Of a stretch of 24,127 bases of DNA, positions 6-7,213 are shown piece by piece; within the stretch, counting starts at the first letter, position 1; each line of letters starts with the position of its first letter. The translations under genes were made by a program, and so were the position numbers. The stretch comes from a virus, in the IMG/VR virus record IMGVR_UViG_3300020578_000424, positions 1 to 24,127 of that record; one strand, 5' to 3'. Below the pieces are notes generated by a model that was not told the DNA's origin, ran no database searches, and saw nothing but the letters and a program-made list of their open reading frames with translations.

Positions 6-323
6 TTATTTTTCTCTAATAAGTAATTCACCTAAAACTTCCATACGGCCTACTTGTCTTTGAAATTCATTTTGGTTCATATCTAAAGAGATACTTTTTA
101 GAATTTCATCAAATTCTTTTTTAGCAGCTTCTTTATCAAATTTGCCATTTATAGCCTTTTCATAATAAGGTGCTTTTACATAAAAGTGATTATAGGTTAA
201 CATTGCTAAACCACCTTTTTCTTTAGCTGTTTCAGCTATTTTAGCAGCACCTTTAGCACGTGTAGTAGCAAAATCTTCAAAAGTTTCTTTTGCTTCTTTT
301 AATATGTCAGTTAATTTAATCAT
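6..323 (-). CDS. Conserved phage protein of unknown function with MIKLTDILKE leader (105 aa)
   Basis: Function unknown. I place the start at the ATG whose complement is at 321-323. An in-frame upstream ATG at 410 would overlap the preceding 488-aa gene by more than 80 bases, and the chosen start lies 4 bases after that gene's stop. The first ten residues, MIKLTDILKE, resemble the starts of three neighbouring proteins and end in LKE followed by Ala, which fits the (L/I)xE cleavage rule of T4-type prohead protease. The rest is Lys/Glu/Ala-rich and mostly helical, with an aromatic patch around residues 44-55 (YNHFYVK) and a C-terminal segment (FQRQVGRMEVLGELLI, 87-102). From memory, similar small proteins occur in uncultured marine phages without a known role. 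It is the last gene of the left cluster in this window and may be a virion-internal protein, which is inference. Confidence 0.75.
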   Translation of the reverse strand: MIKLTDILKEAKETFEDFATTRAKGAAKIAETAKEKGGLAMLTYNHFYVKAPYYEKAINGKFDKEAAKKEFDEILKSISLDMNQNEFQRQVGRMEVLGELLIREK

Positions 324-327
324 TTTA

Positions 328-1794
328 TTATTTTTTAACACAATTAGGATATCTTTTACCAAACATTTTTTTAAAACCTTTTTGGGTATATCCTTTCCAA
401 CATTTTTCATTTAATTTGCCAGGAGCATTTAATGTTTTATTTGTTTTAACATCTTTATTATATCCACAAGTACCTTCTTTTTTTACTTGGCCATATCCTG
501 AACCATATGGTACTGCTTTACCTGATTGTGGATTTGAAGTTTCTTTATTTAAAATTTTAGTCTTCTTTTTTGATGCTTCTTTACGTTTTTCAATATAATT
601 TAATGCACGTTTTAATCTAGATTTCACCTCAGGGTCTTTAGCTTTACCATAAGCTGCTCTAACACGTTGATGAATTAAATTAATAACTTGTGATTTACGA
701 GCATGTGGTTTAGCTTTGAATGATTTTTTAGCTAATGTATTTTTGATATCTTGAGCTGTTTTAAACTTAATACGGACAGTATCTTTTGGATTTTCGTCTG
801 TATATAAACGGCGATCAGATCCTTTTGGTTTTTTACCTGTACCTTTTTTAGGGTCTGGTTTTTTAGTGTTACCTTCTAAATATCCTTTTTTTACTGCTAA
901 TTTAGGATCATTAGTCCAAACATCAGATGCTTTATATCTAGTTTTTAATATCATATCTGCCTTATATGGCGGATAATTTTCATCTAATTTAGGAAGAGAT
1001 TGATTTACTCTCTTTCCATCTAATATCTCTGTTGGTTTCATTATTATTTCATTCCAGAGATATGTTTTATTTTGTTGACATTCTATCCAGTTTCTACACA
1101 AATTATTTTCATTATCTGGGAAAGAAAATCTAAATAAATTGGCAGCTTTGTGTCCTTTGTCTGTTGTTATTGATTTAACATCTGATTGGAATGCTGCTAC
1201 TAAGTCACCTTTTAATTTTAGTAATATATTACTTTCAGGTTTAAAAAATTCTTTGAATTGTGTAGTAAATGTAGAAATAGGTATATGAATACCTTGAGAA
1301 ATAGAATCTACAATATTTTTATATCCTTCTTCTGTAGTATAATGATATGATACTACTTGAATATCATTACTTCCATAAGTGTCTTCAGTAAATTGTTCGT
1401 CTAATAAAATATAAGGTTCAAGTGCTCCTCTTGAATAAAAAAATGCAATCTTATCATTATCAAAATTAACAATATATTTTTCAAATTCATCTTTTAAAGA
1501 CCAAACTCTATGATTTACAAAATCTTCAATGAAATCTAACACCATTTTTTTAGTTAACTGAGAAAACAATTCAGTTTCACTATAAAGTTGATATCCAAAA
1601 TATTTATTAACTAATTCTATTAATTGGTCATTATTACTTATTTGACCTCCTCTAACATCATACCCTTGGGATTGTAATGCTAAAAATTCTTTAGATATAG
1701 CTTCCCATTCGCTTATAGTATGAAAACTAGACTCGGGTCTATAGTAACCTCTTACAGGGAATACTTCATTTAGTATGTTTATTAAATTAATCAT
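328..1794 (-). CDS. 488-aa multidomain phage protein; possible ADP-ribosyltransferase-like core, basic Cys-rich tail
   Basis: No confident family assignment. Residues 1-10 (MINLINILNE) form the leader shared with neighbours. Residues 147-262 contain a pattern reminiscent of H-Y-[E/Q]-type ADP-ribosyltransferases: SYHYTT (149-154), a following K-N-I then S-Q-G (159-168), STFT (174-177), a strand LLKLKGDLVAAF (191-202), and WNEIIMKPTEIL (247-258) as a possible catalytic-Glu loop. This resemblance is weak and unproven. Residues 300-330 are a Lys/Pro/Gly linker. Residues 338-412 form a very basic helical domain (RIKFKTAQDI, INLIHQRVRAAYGKAKDP). The tail carries Cys443, Cys465 and Cys485 in a CWKGY...GKRYPNC arrangement that I recall from C-termini of other marine phage proteins. 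Its ATG shares one base with the upstream stop (TAATG), so translation is probably coupled. It may be a DNA-binding or packaged protein. Confidence 0.85.
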   Translation of the reverse strand: MINLINILNEVFPVRGYYRPESSFHTISEWEAISKEFLALQSQGYDVRGGQISNNDQLIELVNKYFGYQLYSETELFSQLTKKMVLDFIEDFVNHRVWSLKDEFEKYIVNFDNDKIAFFYSRGALEPYILLDEQFTEDTYGSNDIQVVSYHYTTEEGYKNIVDSISQGIHIPISTFTTQFKEFFKPESNILLKLKGDLVAAFQSDVKSITTDKGHKAANLFRFSFPDNENNLCRNWIECQQNKTYLWNEIIMKPTEILDGKRVNQSLPKLDENYPPYKADMILKTRYKASDVWTNDPKLAVKKGYLEGNTKKPDPKKGTGKKPKGSDRRLYTDENPKDTVRIKFKTAQDIKNTLAKKSFKAKPHARKSQVINLIHQRVRAAYGKAKDPEVKSRLKRALNYIEKRKEASKKKTKILNKETSNPQSGKAVPYGSGYGQVKKEGTCGYNKDVKTNKTLNAPGKLNEKCWKGYTQKGFKKMFGKRYPNCVKK

Positions 1795-2804
1795 TACCAG
1801 AATCCTGAAAATGATGTTTTAAAGCCTAACAGCTTAGCATATCGTGGTAAACGACAGCTCCAATACGATGCCTTTGTTCTATCTTTCTTTTGAGGGCAAT
1901 TATGGCGTTTAGAAAACGCTTGTCTTGCTTTTGAATTGTTTAATTTAGCACGTAATCCTGATGTGTCACCAAATGATACTTTTTTAATTTTTTTCGTCTT
2001 AGGATTCTTAACGTAAACGTAGAATTTTTTAGAACCACCACGTTTTGGTTTTCCAATTGGTGGTGTTTTCTTTTCAGTTTTTGCTTCTTTTAAGTATACC
2101 GAAGTATTTTTTAAAAAACTATCTATTTCTTTTTTAGGTATGTGTAATATTTTTACATTTTGATTATTAACCCCATATCCTTTAATACTGTAGAAACTTT
2201 CACCATCATCGTCAAATTGATATTGAATTGAAACTATATCCCCTATTTTAAATTGGGTTCCTTTAATAGAAGTTTCTTTATCTACTACTACTGTTTTTGG
2301 GAAATTTGATGATTCTTCAGTTAAAAACTCGGCATCATCTAAGAATGGTAATCCTAAATGTATTGTTTTATTTTCAATAATTACTGAATGACCAATACCT
2401 GATTCAAGTAATTCTGCTTCTTCTTTAGTTACTTTTAGTAAACCTTCGTTATATAATTGTCTTGCTTCGTTAAATAAATCAAAATATGCTTTTGATTCAG
2501 GACGAAACACATTTTCAAATAAACTTAACTTATTTTTAATATGGAAAGCTAAACCAGCTGAGATTTCATTTAAATCACCAGCGTATTCCATTTTTTCTTG
2601 TGTTGCCTTAATTAAATCTGAAAAGTGAAATGATTTTGTAGAACCATCACTTAATTTAATAGCGTAGAAGGGATGTTTAGCTAAAGTAATTTCACCTTCT
2701 TTACCGTCAGTAGTTTTTACTTTTTCACCTTCAGCAAATTTTACATCTTCCTCTAAAAGACGTTCAATTTCTTCTCTAATTAAAACTTTTAATTCTACTG
2801 ACAT
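1794..2804 (-). CDS. 336-aa phage protein: KOW-like N-terminus, conserved RPES segment, basic Cys-pair C-terminal domain
   Basis: Function unknown. It begins with an acidic amphipathic helix (LIREEIERLLEE, 8-19). Residues 22-65 look like a small beta-barrel of KOW or Tudor type (FAEGEKVKTTDGKEGEI, then FYAIKLSDGS). Residues 96-136 contain FENVFRPESKAYFDLFNEAR and a helical ELLESGIG, a pattern I recognise from uncharacterised marine phage proteins. The RPES string also occurs at residues 19-22 of the next protein. Residues 257-322 form a strongly basic domain, FYVYVKNPKTKKIKKVSFGD then RHNC (Cys303) and YWSC (Cys317), again recurrent at phage protein C-termini. The Cys pair could bind metal, which is inference. 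Stop and start codons are shared with both neighbours as TAATG, so it is the middle member of a translationally coupled trio. A role inside the virion or in DNA binding is plausible but not shown. Confidence 0.85.
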   Translation of the reverse strand: MSVELKVLIREEIERLLEEDVKFAEGEKVKTTDGKEGEITLAKHPFYAIKLSDGSTKSFHFSDLIKATQEKMEYAGDLNEISAGLAFHIKNKLSLFENVFRPESKAYFDLFNEARQLYNEGLLKVTKEEAELLESGIGHSVIIENKTIHLGLPFLDDAEFLTEESSNFPKTVVVDKETSIKGTQFKIGDIVSIQYQFDDDGESFYSIKGYGVNNQNVKILHIPKKEIDSFLKNTSVYLKEAKTEKKTPPIGKPKRGGSKKFYVYVKNPKTKKIKKVSFGDTSGLRAKLNNSKARQAFSKRHNCPQKKDRTKASYWSCRLPRYAKLLGFKTSFSGFW

Positions 2805-3175
2805 TATTTTAAGAATTTTAACTTGTAAATAGTAGTATTAATTAACTCAGAAATCATATCTACTTGATTTTGCACATATGAGTCTTGAGGTAATTTATTT
2901 CTGTTTTGTTCAACATACATTGACAACGCAGTAAAATAAGCAATTATTTCTTCACATGAAATATACTCTCTTACTTGACCAGGAGCAGAATAACCTGTGA
3001 TGATACCATTTTTACCTTGAATTGATTCAACAAGAGGATCAATTATATCAATAATTTTTTCATAATAAGCAGCTAATGCTCTGTGAGCCGCATCAGATGG
3101 AGTCTGCCAATGATAAATGTGAGCTTGGTTTCTTGAGGCAAGTAAAGTTGAAAAAAATGCAGCTATAGGATTCAT
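2804..3175 (-). CDS. Dps/ferritin-like four-helix protein (DUF5856-like), 123 aa
   Basis: Probably a small ferritin-like helical bundle. The N-terminal half reads NQAHIYHWQT (16-25), then AHRAL (30-34), YY (37-38), and a helix with Asp43, Asp46 and Glu50 (IIDIIDPLVE). This matches the arrangement of Dps proteins, where the first helix carries His before Trp and a later helix carries the D-x3-E type ferroxidase ligands. I recall the same pattern in the phage family DUF5856. His19, His22, His31, Asp43/46 and Glu50 are candidate metal ligands. At 123 aa it is shorter than bacterial Dps (about 160 aa), and it lacks a basic DNA-binding tail. It is fused by TAATG overlaps between the coiled-coil protein upstream and the KOW/Cys-pair protein downstream. 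Its role could be metal or peroxide handling, or a structural one. Iron oxidation is not demonstrable from sequence. Confidence 0.8.
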   Translation of the reverse strand: MNPIAAFFSTLLASRNQAHIYHWQTPSDAAHRALAAYYEKIIDIIDPLVESIQGKNGIITGYSAPGQVREYISCEEIIAYFTALSMYVEQNRNKLPQDSYVQNQVDMISELINTTIYKLKFLK

Positions 3176-3837
3176 TATTTTTTAATTTTTTCAGCTTCGT
3201 CTAATTTTTTTACTTCGTTTTCTAAAGCACCTTTTAATTTAGCTAATTCGGCTTCTTTTTTCTTTAAATCACCTAATAATTTTTCAGCATCAGCAAAGTG
3301 AGCATCACGAGTGCCAGGTTCAGACATAGCTGACTGCATGTGATGTTCGATTTCTTGCTTAATTAAATTAATATCATCTTCAAGTTCAGCTGCTTTATTT
3401 TCACCTAATTTAAGATTTTCTCTCATTTGTTTTCTCATTTCGTTGATGAGTCTTTCACCAATTCTTTGAGCTTTATCAGCTGTTTTGTATAAACCAAATA
3501 TATTATCAAAATCTAACCCACGTTTAAATAAATTAGCAATGGTAAATAAATCACCTTCAGCTACAATATTTTCAACAGTTGAATCTTTAGTTGGGTTTTG
3601 TACAATAAAAAATGAACCCAATTGATCATCAATACCAAGGGCAGCAGTTGTTGGATCAACATTATCTTGTAATGCTTCTTTAATTTCTTTTGCAGCTTTA
3701 ACCGCTTCGTTTTTTTCAACAGCGTATAATGCGGCTAAGTAGTCTTTAACTGCACCTTTAGTGCATCCTACTTTTTCCCCGCGTTTGCCATTTTCGTATT
3801 GTTTGTAAACACATTTACCGACTGATGTATAAGGCAT
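3175..3837 (-). CDS. Coiled-coil phage protein with N-terminal Cys-pair module (220 aa)
   Basis: Function unknown. Residues 1-40 form a compact basic module, GKCVYKQYENGKRGEKVGC then KDYLAALYA, with Cys9 and Cys25. Similar short modules occur at the ends of other phage proteins, including, in variant form, the next two-cysteine tails in this cluster. Residues 45-125 are mixed. Residues 128-220 are almost entirely charged heptad-like helix (Lys/Glu/Ala/Leu), predicted to form a long coiled coil. The size and composition would suit a scaffold-like or internal head protein, but nothing proves it. It is the first gene after a 47-base gap that contains the motif GTATATTTATATAG on the coding strand 28 bases before the ATG, so it probably begins a transcription unit. 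No Shine-Dalgarno sequence precedes the ATG. Confidence 0.82.
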   Translation of the reverse strand: MPYTSVGKCVYKQYENGKRGEKVGCTKGAVKDYLAALYAVEKNEAVKAAKEIKEALQDNVDPTTAALGIDDQLGSFFIVQNPTKDSTVENIVAEGDLFTIANLFKRGLDFDNIFGLYKTADKAQRIGERLINEMRKQMRENLKLGENKAAELEDDINLIKQEIEHHMQSAMSEPGTRDAHFADAEKLLGDLKKKEAELAKLKGALENEVKKLDEAEKIKK

Positions 3838-3865
3838 AAATATTATTATTTATTAGAGTATTTCT

Positions 3866-3879
3866 CTATATAAATATAC
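3866..3879 (-). promoter_or_regulatory. Putative phage promoter motif GTATATTTATATAG
   Basis: The coding strand reads GTATATTTATATAG in the gap between the GAF-like gene and the 220-aa gene, 28 bases before the ATG at 3837. The identical 14-mer occurs at 21831-21844 and a near-copy at 14620-14635, all in genuine intergenic gaps upstream of a minus-strand gene. A five-base inverted repeat (TAGAG / CTCTA, 3854-3868) overlaps its downstream edge and could be a 5' leader hairpin or operator. Promoter function is inferred from position and repetition only. Confidence 0.42.
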
Positions 3880-3884
3880 AATAT

Positions 3885-4484
3885 TTAATAAAGGTAGCCA
3901 GAAAATACACCGGCTTCTACGTTAAGCGCGGTAATTTGCTCAGTATCTAATATAACTTTCTTTTTACAATAATCTAAACCTAAAACTCCAATAAATTTTC
4001 CATCAATGTTTTTAATAGCAAAATAATAACCCCCTTTAGTATTTGTTTCCGCAGCGGTATATTTTAATCCTAAATCATTAATATTTTCATTTTTAAAATC
4101 GAAAATAGCAAGATGTGTATTTTCTAATAAATAATTTGTAGATCTTGAAAATAACGATACTGGAATGTTTTGGAATATCATCTTTACAGATTCAGTATTT
4201 AATGTTAATACTTCATAAAACATACTAAATTTCTGTATTGATTTTCCTGAGGGGTAAAAATACCCTCCATTATGAAATTGGGTAATCCAAACTCTATCAG
4301 CTTTATACGTTTCCCTAATTTTTTCTAATTTAGTGTCAATTTGACTATATAGTGCACATTGCTCTGCTATTGGATCTGTATTTTTTTCCTTTATTTTTTT
4401 AGTACGATTAATATAAAATTGAACTAATAAAGGACCTAATATACCTGTTAAAAAGGCTGCTATTATTTCTGTAGAGTAAGTCAT
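3885..4484 (-). CDS. Membrane-anchored GAF-like domain protein (199 aa)
   Basis: Residues 5-25 (TEIIAAFLTGILGPLLVQFY) form one transmembrane helix, followed by a positively charged stretch (NRTKKIKEK), so the rest is predicted to be cytoplasmic. After a helix (38-60) comes an alpha/beta domain: ADRVWITQFHNGGYFYPSG (62-80), SIQKFSMFYE (82-91), then GGYYFAIKNIDGKFIGVLGLDY near residues 151-172. This order of strands and the closing helix fits a GAF-like sensor or binding fold. I recall the QFHNGG...FYPSGKS signature from other T4-like phages without a known function. It stands as a short unit with AT-rich gaps on both sides, the upstream one containing TATATTTAT. It could sense or modulate something at the inner membrane during infection. 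A holin-type role is less likely because there is only one membrane helix and a large soluble domain. Confidence 0.78.
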   Translation of the reverse strand: MTYSTEIIAAFLTGILGPLLVQFYINRTKKIKEKNTDPIAEQCALYSQIDTKLEKIRETYKADRVWITQFHNGGYFYPSGKSIQKFSMFYEVLTLNTESVKMIFQNIPVSLFSRSTNYLLENTHLAIFDFKNENINDLGLKYTAAETNTKGGYYFAIKNIDGKFIGVLGLDYCKKKVILDTEQITALNVEAGVFSGYLY

Positions 4485-4501
4485 ATATAAAAATAAATAT
4501 A

Positions 4502-5074
4502 TTAAATTGATTTATTCTTTAATTCCTGAATATATTCTTTTAGTTTAGTTACTTCATTTTTATTAACGGTTCCACCTCCCCAATTTTCAACATCTCCTGC
4601 TTCATTTACAAATGTATCTTTTACATTAGCCCACGCATCTATAGCTTCTAAAGTTTCATCTAGCACTGCATCTTTATTAGCATTTAATATATTACATTGA
4701 TATTCTTCAAACTTACCTTCTTGACGTAATTTAGTTTCATATTCAATTACACAATCAAAACATGTTTTGTGTATTGCCCACATTTCTTTATTATAGCGGT
4801 TATCTTTCATTGGACGACCACAATTAGGACATAAAAGGGGTAAAGTAACTAAACGTTTTAAAGTATCATACTTTGTAACAGTTTGTTTAATACCATTTTT
4901 AATAGTCCATTTCCTACCATTTTCTTCCCATATATCACCTTCAGTATGTTCTATTTGTGTTTTAGTATAACCTACCTGGGATTGGGTTTTACCACCTAAA
5001 TCTCCAGTAATAAGATTTCTCATACGTTGAACATCACGTTGAGAAAATTCTCTTTTTAATTGTGATTCACTCAT
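4502..5074 (-). CDS. Conserved phage zinc-ribbon protein (190 aa)
   Basis: Exact role unknown. The N-terminal part, SQRDVQRMRNLITG (11-24), then QSQVGYTK (31-38) and EGDIWEENGRKWTIKNGI (45-62), is a pattern I recognise from uncharacterised proteins of cyanophages and other T4-like phages. Residues 82-108 contain CPNC (82, 85) and CFDC (105, 108), a four-Cys zinc ribbon with a 19-residue spacer. The C-terminal third is acidic and helical, with a Trp-Gly-Gly-Gly turn near 165. The zinc ribbon could bind nucleic acid or a protein partner. The gene overlaps the HAD gene that follows it by the four bases ATGA, so the two are probably translationally coupled. Standard start, no Shine-Dalgarno sequence. 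Confidence 0.82.
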   Translation of the reverse strand: MSESQLKREFSQRDVQRMRNLITGDLGGKTQSQVGYTKTQIEHTEGDIWEENGRKWTIKNGIKQTVTKYDTLKRLVTLPLLCPNCGRPMKDNRYNKEMWAIHKTCFDCVIEYETKLRQEGKFEEYQCNILNANKDAVLDETLEAIDAWANVKDTFVNEAGDVENWGGGTVNKNEVTKLKEYIQELKNKSI

Positions 5075-5586
5075 AAACCTAATTCTTTAAGTTGCGAAAT
5101 AGTGTCGCTGGCACTTTTATGATGGATACCAATTCCACCTTTTTCTCTCCACATAACAATATTTGGTTCTAATCTATCATCTATTAATATTTTCCCTTCA
5201 CCTGATTGATCTGCTTTGCGTTCTGGAGAAGCTAAGATTAATTTAGTTCCTGGTAGATATTTTTTAACCCACAAACGCTTACCTAAACGGCTTGATTCTG
5301 AAGCTGATGGTGATGATAATAAAATAGGATTATATTTTTTAATATAGTCCCAAAGTTGATGTCCATCTGGCATCCAAGGAATACCAACCCAGAATTTAAC
5401 ACCTATGTTGTTATCGATTTGATTCCAAAATGCTCTTTTACCATACTTTGCTTCGTACTCTTGAGGAGGGATTCCAAAAAAATGGTCAAAACGTGCTTCA
5501 AAATCAGCAATAACGCCATCCATATCACAATAAATTTGATATGGGGTAATGCCTTCTACTTCTAATATGTTTTTTAAACTTATCAT
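5071..5586 (-). CDS. HAD-family 5'(3')-nucleotidase-like phosphatase with N-terminal leader (171 aa)
   Basis: A HAD-superfamily hydrolase of the short deoxyribonucleotidase type. Motif I is CDMDGVIADF (20-29, nucleophile Asp21 and acid/base Asp23). Motif II is LLSSPS (89-94). A Lys in GKRLWVKK (102-109) is the likely motif III base. Motif IV is ILIDDRLEPN (133-142, Asp136/137). The likely reaction is dephosphorylation of a (deoxy)nucleoside monophosphate in the cytoplasm, although the substrate cannot be read from sequence. Compared with the neighbouring HAD protein, which starts directly at its first strand, this one has about 13 extra residues before the fold (MISLKNILEVEG), resembling the leaders of other proteins in the cluster. 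ATGA overlaps link it to both neighbours. Confidence 0.87.
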   Translation of the reverse strand: MISLKNILEVEGITPYQIYCDMDGVIADFEARFDHFFGIPPQEYEAKYGKRAFWNQIDNNIGVKFWVGIPWMPDGHQLWDYIKKYNPILLSSPSASESSRLGKRLWVKKYLPGTKLILASPERKADQSGEGKILIDDRLEPNIVMWREKGGIGIHHKSASDTISQLKELGL

Positions 5587-6473
5587 AACTCAAATACCAT
5601 CGGATTTTTCTGTCCATAATTTCTCATTAATACACCTGCTAAAGCATTTGCTTCATTCTCTACTGGTGAGCCCGTTTGGCCTGAAGACATATCAAGTTTA
5701 TTAAGTTGCATCTGTTGAGCATGAACCATTTCGTGAGCTAATGTTCTTAATATATCAGCTAATCCTCTTCCTTTAATTACTATAGCAATTTTGTTTTGCA
5801 TTGGTTGGTATCCACCAAAACTTTTAAATTGTTGAGTAAAATTAGGAGAATTAATAACATGTACTTTAGGAACATCTTTTAATTGAAGTTCATTTGATGC
5901 AAAATTAACAAAATCTTTCATAGTGTGAAAGAAATTAGGAGCATATTCTTTAATAATGTTTTCTTGTAAACGTTTTTTATTTAAATAATTTTTCCAATAA
6001 TTTTCTTTTAACATACCTAATTGCTTAATAATTTGATTAGCATTATTTTGAAATAAATACGATATTCCTCCTTCTATTTCCCAATCAGCCACATTATCGG
6101 GACGATCATCAATTAAAATATTACCTCCCTTAGCGTATTTCTTTTTCGCTGATTTATTATTAACAAATATGATTTCTTTAAGGTAAGGAGATAAACCATT
6201 CTTTTTTAACCATTCAAGTTTACCTTGTTTTGTTCGTTCATTTGTTCCCGCTGCTGATAATATTGATGGTTCTTTATCTTTAACAGTGTTAAATATTTTC
6301 ATTCCCTCAGGGATTGGTTTTAAATTAGACCACCACTCCTCAGGATTACTATTAATTTTATTCCAAATAGCTTTGCCATCATCCTCAGATACACCTAATT
6401 GTTTAGCAGTATCTTTCAAACCACCTTTATAGTCTGCTAATAAACCATCCATATCAAGATAAATCTGTGGCAT
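5583..6473 (-). CDS. HAD phosphatase fused to HExxH zinc metallopeptidase-like domain (296 aa)
   Basis: Two domains. Residues 1-152 form a HAD fold: IYLDMDGLLADY (4-15, Asp7 and Asp9), SILSAAG (70-76) and ILIDDRPDN (119-127), closely similar in layout to the HAD protein encoded just downstream. Residues 153-180 form a charged helical linker containing MLKE, LQEN and IIKE. Residues 181-296 are a zincin-like domain with LAHEMVHAQQ (245-254; zinc ligands His247 and His251, catalytic Glu248) and SPVENEANALAG (269-280), where Glu272 or Glu274 is the probable third ligand. I recall this HExxH...ENEAN pattern as a recurrent phage peptidase family of unknown substrate. Fusion to a HAD domain is unusual. 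One domain could process nucleotides and the other a viral or host protein. TAATG overlap with the kinase gene upstream and ATGA with the HAD gene downstream. Confidence 0.85.
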   Translation of the reverse strand: MPQIYLDMDGLLADYKGGLKDTAKQLGVSEDDGKAIWNKINSNPEEWWSNLKPIPEGMKIFNTVKDKEPSILSAAGTNERTKQGKLEWLKKNGLSPYLKEIIFVNNKSAKKKYAKGGNILIDDRPDNVADWEIEGGISYLFQNNANQIIKQLGMLKENYWKNYLNKKRLQENIIKEYAPNFFHTMKDFVNFASNELQLKDVPKVHVINSPNFTQQFKSFGGYQPMQNKIAIVIKGRGLADILRTLAHEMVHAQQMQLNKLDMSSGQTGSPVENEANALAGVLMRNYGQKNPMVFEL

Positions 6474-7213
6474 TACTTAAGAAATCCTTTTAATTTAGTT
6501 GCTAATTCATCAAATGCCACAAAGTTAGCATCTTCAGTTTTATCAATAAGTGTTTGAATACGTGCCTCAATTTTCTTCTTATCTTCCTCGGGTATGTCTT
6601 TCCAGATTTTAGATTTTTCAAATAATGATTCTACATCTTCTAGGTTAAAGCTTTTATTAGCACCTTGAGGATCATTATCTACTAAAGCAAAATGATCAGC
6701 ATCAAATAGTTGTGAATATAAATCAACATTTTTAATTACATCTTCCCAGTTTCTAATTACAATACCTGGATCTAGTGATCTGTCTCTACTCATATTGCGA
6801 GATAAAGTAGTATATGGTGAAGCATATAATAAAACCATCATTACATCATAACCTTGTTTTTCTAGTTTTTCCTTTGTTTCCTTTACCTTTTTAAAGCTAC
6901 CACCTGTAATATCTAAAATAACTGGTTTTGTACCAATTGCTTTTTCTAATTCAGATCTGTATTGTTTTACAGCTACCGCTTGTGCTTTTGCTGCTGCTGA
7001 TAATTGTTCAGGTGAAAAATCTTTCATATTCATTGAACCACCACCAATTTTGGCTAATTCTGGTTCGTAGAATTTATCAGGATTTAACACATATTTTTGA
7101 TATTCAGTAGGAATAACAGATTTAACAAATGTCGACTTACCCACGTTAGATGGTCCAGCAATCAACACTGCTTTTAAATCTTTCTGTGCTTCCTTAATAA
7201 CTTTTAATTTCAT
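6473..7213 (-). CDS. Zeta-toxin-like P-loop kinase (246 aa)
   Basis: A P-loop NTPase with Walker A GPSNVGKST (20-28) directly after the first hydrophobic strand. LNPDKF (43-48) places Asp46 where zeta-toxin and polynucleotide-kinase families bind substrate. VILDITGG (98-105) is a Walker B-like strand, and SRNMSRDR (138-145) provides the Arg-rich lid. This order fits the zeta-toxin/PNK-like kinase group. The phosphate acceptor is unknown: a nucleic acid end, a nucleotide sugar, or another small molecule. About 13 residues precede the fold (MKLKVIKEAQKDL), and IKE followed by Ala matches the prohead-protease type site seen in neighbours. It is the first gene after a strong terminator, so it must have its own promoter or depend on read-through. 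No antitoxin-like gene lies beside it, which argues against a toxin-antitoxin pair. Confidence 0.83.
   Translation of the reverse strand: MKLKVIKEAQKDLKAVLIAGPSNVGKSTFVKSVIPTEYQKYVLNPDKFYEPELAKIGGGSMNMKDFSPEQLSAAAKAQAVAVKQYRSELEKAIGTKPVILDITGGSFKKVKETKEKLEKQGYDVMMVLLYASPYTTLSRNMSRDRSLDPGIVIRNWEDVIKNVDLYSQLFDADHFALVDNDPQGANKSFNLEDVESLFEKSKIWKDIPEEDKKKIEARIQTLIDKTEDANFVAFDELATKLKGFLK

Follow-up and report, generated by a model that had tools for sequence, protein, structure and literature searches.

Putative capsid-targeting leaders on enzymes encoded in a late gene cluster of an aquatic T4-like phage

Introduction

The internal proteins IPI, IPII and IPIII and the Alt protein of phage T4 carry a capsid-targeting sequence (CTS), are processed by gp21 and are injected. 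Here, short N-terminal leaders of a similar kind are described in a gene cluster of the virus record IMGVR_UViG_3300020578_000424 (IMG/VR), a genome fragment whose entire length of 24,127 bases was analysed and is called the window. It is very likely that these leaders are propeptides of the T4 CTS type, which would dock the proteins on the scaffold and be cut by a gp21-type (S77) protease, the enzymes being freed in the head and ejected with the DNA. In T4 IPIII, mutagenesis assigned CTS residues 4 and 7 to targeting and residues 8 and 10 to processing, with the cut following L/I-x-E (PMC9026906).

The leader proteins and the T4 internal proteins were found to share an N-terminal helix with hydrophobic residues at positions 4, 7 and 8 and E at position 10, an [LI]xE site, a gp21-family protease together with gp23 in the lineage, and unrelated cargo behind similar leaders. 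They differ in the wording of the leader, which is MKTYQEFIAE in T4 and MIKLxxILxE here, and in the cargo, which in the window comprises a deoxyribonucleotidase-like HAD, a P-loop kinase-like protein and conserved domains without assigned function, as well as in the presence here of a second leader class that copies the C-terminus of the scaffold. The gp21-encoding cyanophages S-SM1 and S-CREM2 also contain virion enzymes with leaders of the same pattern (MKKFSAFLNE-A and MKNFSSFLTE-A, respectively), namely an S-adenosylmethionine (SAM) hydrolase, an APH-like kinase and a cytidylyltransferase in S-CREM2 and a cytidyltransferase in S-SM1, whereas their leaders are F-rich and their genes are located elsewhere (in S-SM1 between gp41 and gp61). 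HAD homologues were found in HTVC008M and Melnitz, and a weakly similar kinase was also found in HTVC008M. The ejection proteins of phiKZ and SPN3US are likewise head proteins that are processed by a prohead protease and enter the host (PMC5694885), but their propeptides are much longer, whereas the relatives of the window combine a gp21-type protease with short leaders.

Leaders and head genes

The genes of the window were found on the minus strand, starting at 23.9 kb with those for baseplate and tail, continuing with GIY-YIG-like, primase and exonuclease genes and then with the leader cluster (7213-6). The original prediction, made from the sequence of the window, had named four leaders, and all of them were found at genuine minus-strand gene starts in a tightly packed run; the leader observation is thereby confirmed. 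The 105-amino-acid protein, of unassigned function (6..323, minus strand), was found to contain the leader MIKLTDILKE-A at residues 1-10 (window 294-323), and the 488-amino-acid protein (328..1794, minus strand) the leader MINLINILNE-V (window 1765-1794). The leader MISLKNILE-V (window 5560-5586) was found in the 171-amino-acid HAD, a 5'(3')-deoxyribonucleotidase-like protein (5071..5586, minus strand), and MKLKVIKE-A (window 7190-7213) in the 246-amino-acid P-loop kinase-like protein (6473..7213, minus strand). The leaders end in L/I-x-E, and LKE-A, LNE-V, ILE-V and IKE-A are the candidate cut sites. For the first gene (6-323), the longest open reading frame gives a start of 134 amino acids that is probably wrong; the 105-amino-acid start is preferred because its 4-base spacing to the previous stop fits. 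A fifth, longer leader of a related type, absent from the original list, was found in the gene of the 336-amino-acid protein (1794..2804, minus strand), which begins with MSVELKVLIREEIERLLEE followed by D. The 296-amino-acid HAD-zincin fusion (HEMVH; 5583..6473, minus strand) starts with MPQIYLDMDG and has no leader, as had been predicted for its HAD domain.

The cultured Flavobacterium phage immuto 2-6A (complete, 160 kb) was found to be syntenic with the window. Its genes occur in the order baseplate, primase, exonuclease, the cluster with the HAD and the orthologue of the 105-amino-acid protein, terminase, portal, prohead protease, scaffold and gp23. The protease of immuto, gp070, belongs to Pfam Peptidase_S77, the gp21 family (E = 9e-35), and its capsid protein to Pfam Gp23. 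A gp21-like protease, for which the original prediction had proposed a search, was found together with gp23 in the same block of immuto, Mel-JY01 and 7/7 relatives longer than 100 kb, and the Peptidase_S77 protease was present in 11/28 related records, including all seven of these. The longer metagenomic relatives keep the order of immuto, with the protease and gp23 downstream of the leader cluster; HAD and protease share a strand and are separated by about 12-26 kb. Other genes of the same block were also found to carry the leader, in line with what had been anticipated. Candidate cut sites in the gp23 of the relatives, located by analogy with T4 from their place ahead of the conserved capsid fold, have the sequence KQ[ILV][VIL]xE-[AQSVT] with the cut after E, the same hydrophobic-x-E form as in the leaders, and the N-terminus of gp23 is a helix similar to the leaders (MEINQLLEG, MNVQQLLES).

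Leader pattern

A strict pattern, M..h..h[LIV].E, with hydrophobic residues at positions 4 and 7, [LIV] at 8 and E at 10, was derived from the mutagenesis of T4 IPIII and is independent of the window. In the T4 control, IPII and IPIII were found to match and IPI and Alt were not, and no match occurred among the other T4 genes (0/29). The strict pattern was found in 2/10 genes of the cluster, those of the 105- and 488-amino-acid proteins, which match exactly (shuffle P = 0.00075), and a relaxed pattern in 5/10 genes (P = 0.0007, a value that is optimistic because the pattern was adjusted on leaders already seen). Across the window and the sampled immuto-type late regions, the strict pattern occurred 19 times compared with about 0.8 by shuffling, counts that are not fully independent because some of the genomes are closely related. 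In the 50-kb late block of immuto, an analogous pattern was found in 11/54 compared with 1.1 expected (maximum 4 in 200 shuffles), whereas two earlier segments, with 4/81 and 3/69 against 1.5 and 1.8, were near background. The residue following the leader E was small (A, V, S, G, T, N) in 60% compared with 42% at comparable internal sites (P = 0.001). Mel-JY01 and the segments of Melnitz, HTVC008M and S-SM1, taken as wholes, were not enriched in the pattern, and the claim is therefore confined to the immuto-type late block and to the virion-detected proteins of S-CREM2.

Detachable leaders

Comparison across related phages, which the original prediction had suggested for the leaders, revealed families that occur both with and without a leader as well as leaders that recur in orthologues. 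A domain of about 256 amino acids in the 488-amino-acid protein was found free-standing in most of 80 contigs, where it starts with MYPVRGY, and was also found behind differing leaders, MINLINILNE-VFPVRGY in the window, MKIRIIKEGDEKKMFPVRGY in contig L145 and MIKLKNIISENIKVLGY in contig L223; the protein left after the cut would therefore nearly equal the free-standing protein. The HADs of Atu_ph07, Phosso, Cr30, XacN1, OLIVR1 and phiXF1 contain no such leader and start directly at the first strand. The NMNATs of the cluster occur both ways (MNQLTKFLIGELLDE...GGGFKPPTKGH and MIALYPGAFKPPHRGH), and the leaderless ones start at beta-1. In the AlphaFold model of the 488-amino-acid protein, the core of the domain mostly had a predicted local distance difference test score (pLDDT) above 90 and residues 1-15 were almost all below 50; in that of the 171-amino-acid HAD, the core was above 90 and the leader below 50. 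The leader is detached in the models, although low values there may also stem from a shallow alignment at this variable part. The claim that the HAD leader is extra to a complete fold is thus upheld by complete leaderless orthologues and by the detached leader of the model. Taken with the leaderless homologues of the 488-amino-acid domain and of the NMNATs, the models suggest that removal of the leader would leave a complete folded protein.

Virion proteins of cyanophages

The virion proteome of S-CREM2 lists the open reading frames detected by mass spectrometry with their coordinates, and the text of the paper makes no mention of targeting or propeptides (PMC10665884). The strict pattern was fixed before the comparison with S-CREM2, which covered genes up to 150 kb. 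It was found in 4/26 detected non-structural proteins compared with 1/155 undetected proteins (P = 0.0016), and the 'regulatory' enzymes matched in 3/3 cases, with MKDFDSFLEE in the SAM hydrolase, MKRFDAFLTE in the kinase and MKNFSSFLTE in the cytidylyltransferase. The cytidyltransferase of S-SM1, which was found to start with MKKFSAFLNE-A, is given as detected in virions in the S-SM1 paper, in excerpts of which no link of the enzyme to a CTS was found (PMC3037559). Both phages are cyanophages of another lineage than the window, and this evidence is therefore support by analogy. In the paper on the Baltic Flavobacterium phages, virion mass spectrometry is not reported and immuto is not among the phages treated.

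As a separate observation, the Cas9-like protein of the S-CREM2 virion (gp12, L354 7704-10313) was found to contain a CTS-like RFASFMAE-A near residues 18-25.

Scaffold-motif leaders

The scaffold of the immuto-type phages ends in RMQKLAGI(I/K), for example in the relative L091 (25626-26867). In the phages sampled, 17 other proteins were also found to contain RMQKLAGI, in each case within roughly their first 12 residues, and no internal occurrence was found; these are unrelated late proteins, among them L091 11675-12139, L007 19418-20125 and L131 12192-12938. A pattern scan of viral contigs gave at least 81 occurrences, and among the matches listed 79/81 were at protein ends, with 66 at the extreme C-terminus, 13 at most 20 residues from the first Met and two ambiguous. 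Among the same listed matches, [IL]xE followed RMQKLAGI within about four residues in 13/13 N-terminal cases. Most of the 66 C-terminal matches are presumably scaffolds, since they are alike to ten scaffolds seen in context. The simplest reading of these sequences is that the RMQKLAGI proteins borrow the assembly motif of the scaffold to enter the head and would then be cut off from it.

A third N-terminal wording, FDLKKFLVENKLTxNSKLLxE, was found at the start of several proteins of immuto and its relatives that differ in other respects (L091 3806-4354, 17631-18632 and 18632-18931; L120 10937-11182; L125 6967-7740).

Interpretation and alternatives

In the proposed mechanism, a leader of about 8-14 residues, forming an amphipathic helix and ending in hydrophobic-x-E, would dock the protein on the prohead scaffold core, a gp21-type (S77) protease would cut after the E of the leader and free the complete folded enzyme inside the head, and the enzyme would stay with the DNA there and be ejected together with it. 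Capsid targeting and prohead-protease processing are well supported as inferences because, as anticipated, the protease, gp23 and further leaders are present in the block of the relatives, protein families occur with and without the leader, and the virion enzymes of S-CREM2 carry the pattern. For the proteins encoded in the window itself, docking, packaging, cutting and injection, together with any role in host takeover, are inferred from these comparisons; their injection and an effector role appear plausible, and the word 'effector', used in the original prediction, is a reasonable if provisional label. The T4 principle is extended here to an enzyme-rich cluster and to a leader class that mimics the scaffold. 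On a wider reading, for which the chances seem about even, this aquatic T4-like lineage would load a large interchangeable set of enzymes through at least two kinds of leader, a CTS helix similar to the start of gp23 and RMQKLAGI with a protease site, and deliver them as a pre-made takeover kit at infection, so that genome sequence, through these tags, would suffice to predict injected proteins.

Several observations weigh against CTS-type targeting. The leaders of the HAD and the kinase are shorter variants of the T4 pattern and that of the 336-amino-acid protein is long relative to it, the HAD-zincin fusion in the same block has no leader, many NMNATs of the leader block also lack one, and the gene starts of the relatives were called mechanically. 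The pattern is absent from most S-CREM2 proteins detected in virions and is therefore not necessary for virion association, and the S-CREM2 authors noted that abundant enzymes may co-purify with virions (PMC10665884). Protease, scaffold and capsid genes are absent from the window record, a 24-kb fragment; a Peptidase_S77 search of its 24,127 bases gave no match, which carries no weight since the record is a fragment and the control genomes of that search gave no match either, and neither protease nor gp23 was found in the five closest contigs, none of which exceeds 49 kb.

The leaders may instead serve for docking at the prohead or at another part of the virion and stay uncut, while the proteins would not be injected and would act in assembly, for instance as core proteins or chaperones. 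T4 IPIII is also involved in the assembly of the head (PMC9026906), and the copying of the scaffold C-terminus by one leader class favours docking as such; this reading is nevertheless unlikely, since the cargo includes complete enzyme folds and since leaders that otherwise differ widely retain the E with a hydrophobic residue two positions before it, an arrangement like that of the candidate gp23 sites. That the proteins serve ordinary auxiliary nucleotide metabolism in the infected cell, with the leader being a part of the protein or an effect of AT-rich translation starts, is decidedly improbable. The deoxyribonucleotidase and kinase families are usual metabolic genes of phages, and the leaderless HADs of Cr30 and RHph_I1_18 adjoin genes of ribonucleotide reductase, dCMP deaminase or DHFR, but the leader genes are part of the late block, with exonuclease on one side and terminase on the other, no enrichment of this order was seen in the early segments of immuto, the leaderless orthologues are complete and the poorly scored leaders stand beside confidently modelled cores. 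A chance resemblance of short AT-rich N-termini would agree with the plain [LI]xE count, which in the window alone was 4/21 compared with 2.7 by shuffling and thus not above chance; it is very unlikely, close to negligible, given the significance of the strict pattern in the window, its excess across the relatives and its recurrence in orthologues.

Annotation is lacking for most genes of uncultured aquatic phages, and their nucleotidases, kinases and NMNATs tend to be assigned to auxiliary metabolism in the course of infection. Should the leader be a mark of packaging, many such enzymes would instead be effectors that are injected and act from time zero, and sequence would suffice to list the cargo of a virion. 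The virion enzymes of cyanophages, for which co-purification was not excluded by the authors, would then gain a mechanism of entry, and the RMQKLAGI class provides a specific, testable model for the recruitment of cargo to the scaffold.

Individual leader genes

The orthologues of the 105-amino-acid protein, 66-69% identical, were found to begin with MRLLELLRE-A in immuto (gp082) and with MVKLIHLLTE-A in L132, and the E-A-K of the leader was invariant. The 488-amino-acid protein contains the leader followed by the conserved domain of about 256 amino acids (window 955-1764), a C-terminal region with a match to phrog_727 and a tail, CWKGY...PNCVKK, that is about 80% identical to cyanophage proteins. 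The domain is 45-85% identical across aquatic phage contigs; it had no match in Pfam, in PDB or among cultured phages and, despite its confident prediction, no significant fold match. An ADP-ribosyltransferase (Alt-like) fold was considered for it and dropped as unproven, nothing significant being returned by Pfam, PDB-sequence or Foldseek searches; one member of its alignment gave a weak match to Pfam Tox-ART-HYD1 (E = 0.078).

The 171-amino-acid HAD was found to contain the DMDG motif and to match phrog_2643 (E = 1.3e-25), and its profile matched the human mitochondrial deoxyribonucleotidase (PDB 4mum, E = 2.9e-5); it is assigned as deoxyribonucleotidase-like at the family level. In nearly all aquatic relatives, the HAD carries a variable leader and linker. 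The kinase-like protein gave weak matches to AAA_33 and zeta-toxin, and its homologue in L171 was above both Pfam cut-offs; a P-loop kinase at the family level is suggested by these matches. Its leader is kept in relatives as MKLKVIKE-A and MKLKVLKE-A, and in L171 as MISLKEIIKGILSE followed by G. The HAD-zincin fusion matched NT5C (E = 1.2e-8), and its close relatives begin with MANIYFDMDG; a more distant relative (L131 9664-10746) carries the leader MNQLVQELIKDLLEQ. A zincin-like part resembling that of the fusion was also found, in relatives, within proteins that start with an NMNAT-like domain.

The C-terminus of the 336-amino-acid protein is a phrog_7595 domain (E = 2.6e-9), which the Melnitz NMNAT protein (L140 14914-16866) also has at its C-terminus; this sharing suggests that possible cargo proteins may exchange modules. 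Midway in the cluster, the protein encoded at window 2804-3175 was found to match Pfam DUF5856 and a PHROG annotated as starvation-inducible transcriptional regulator.

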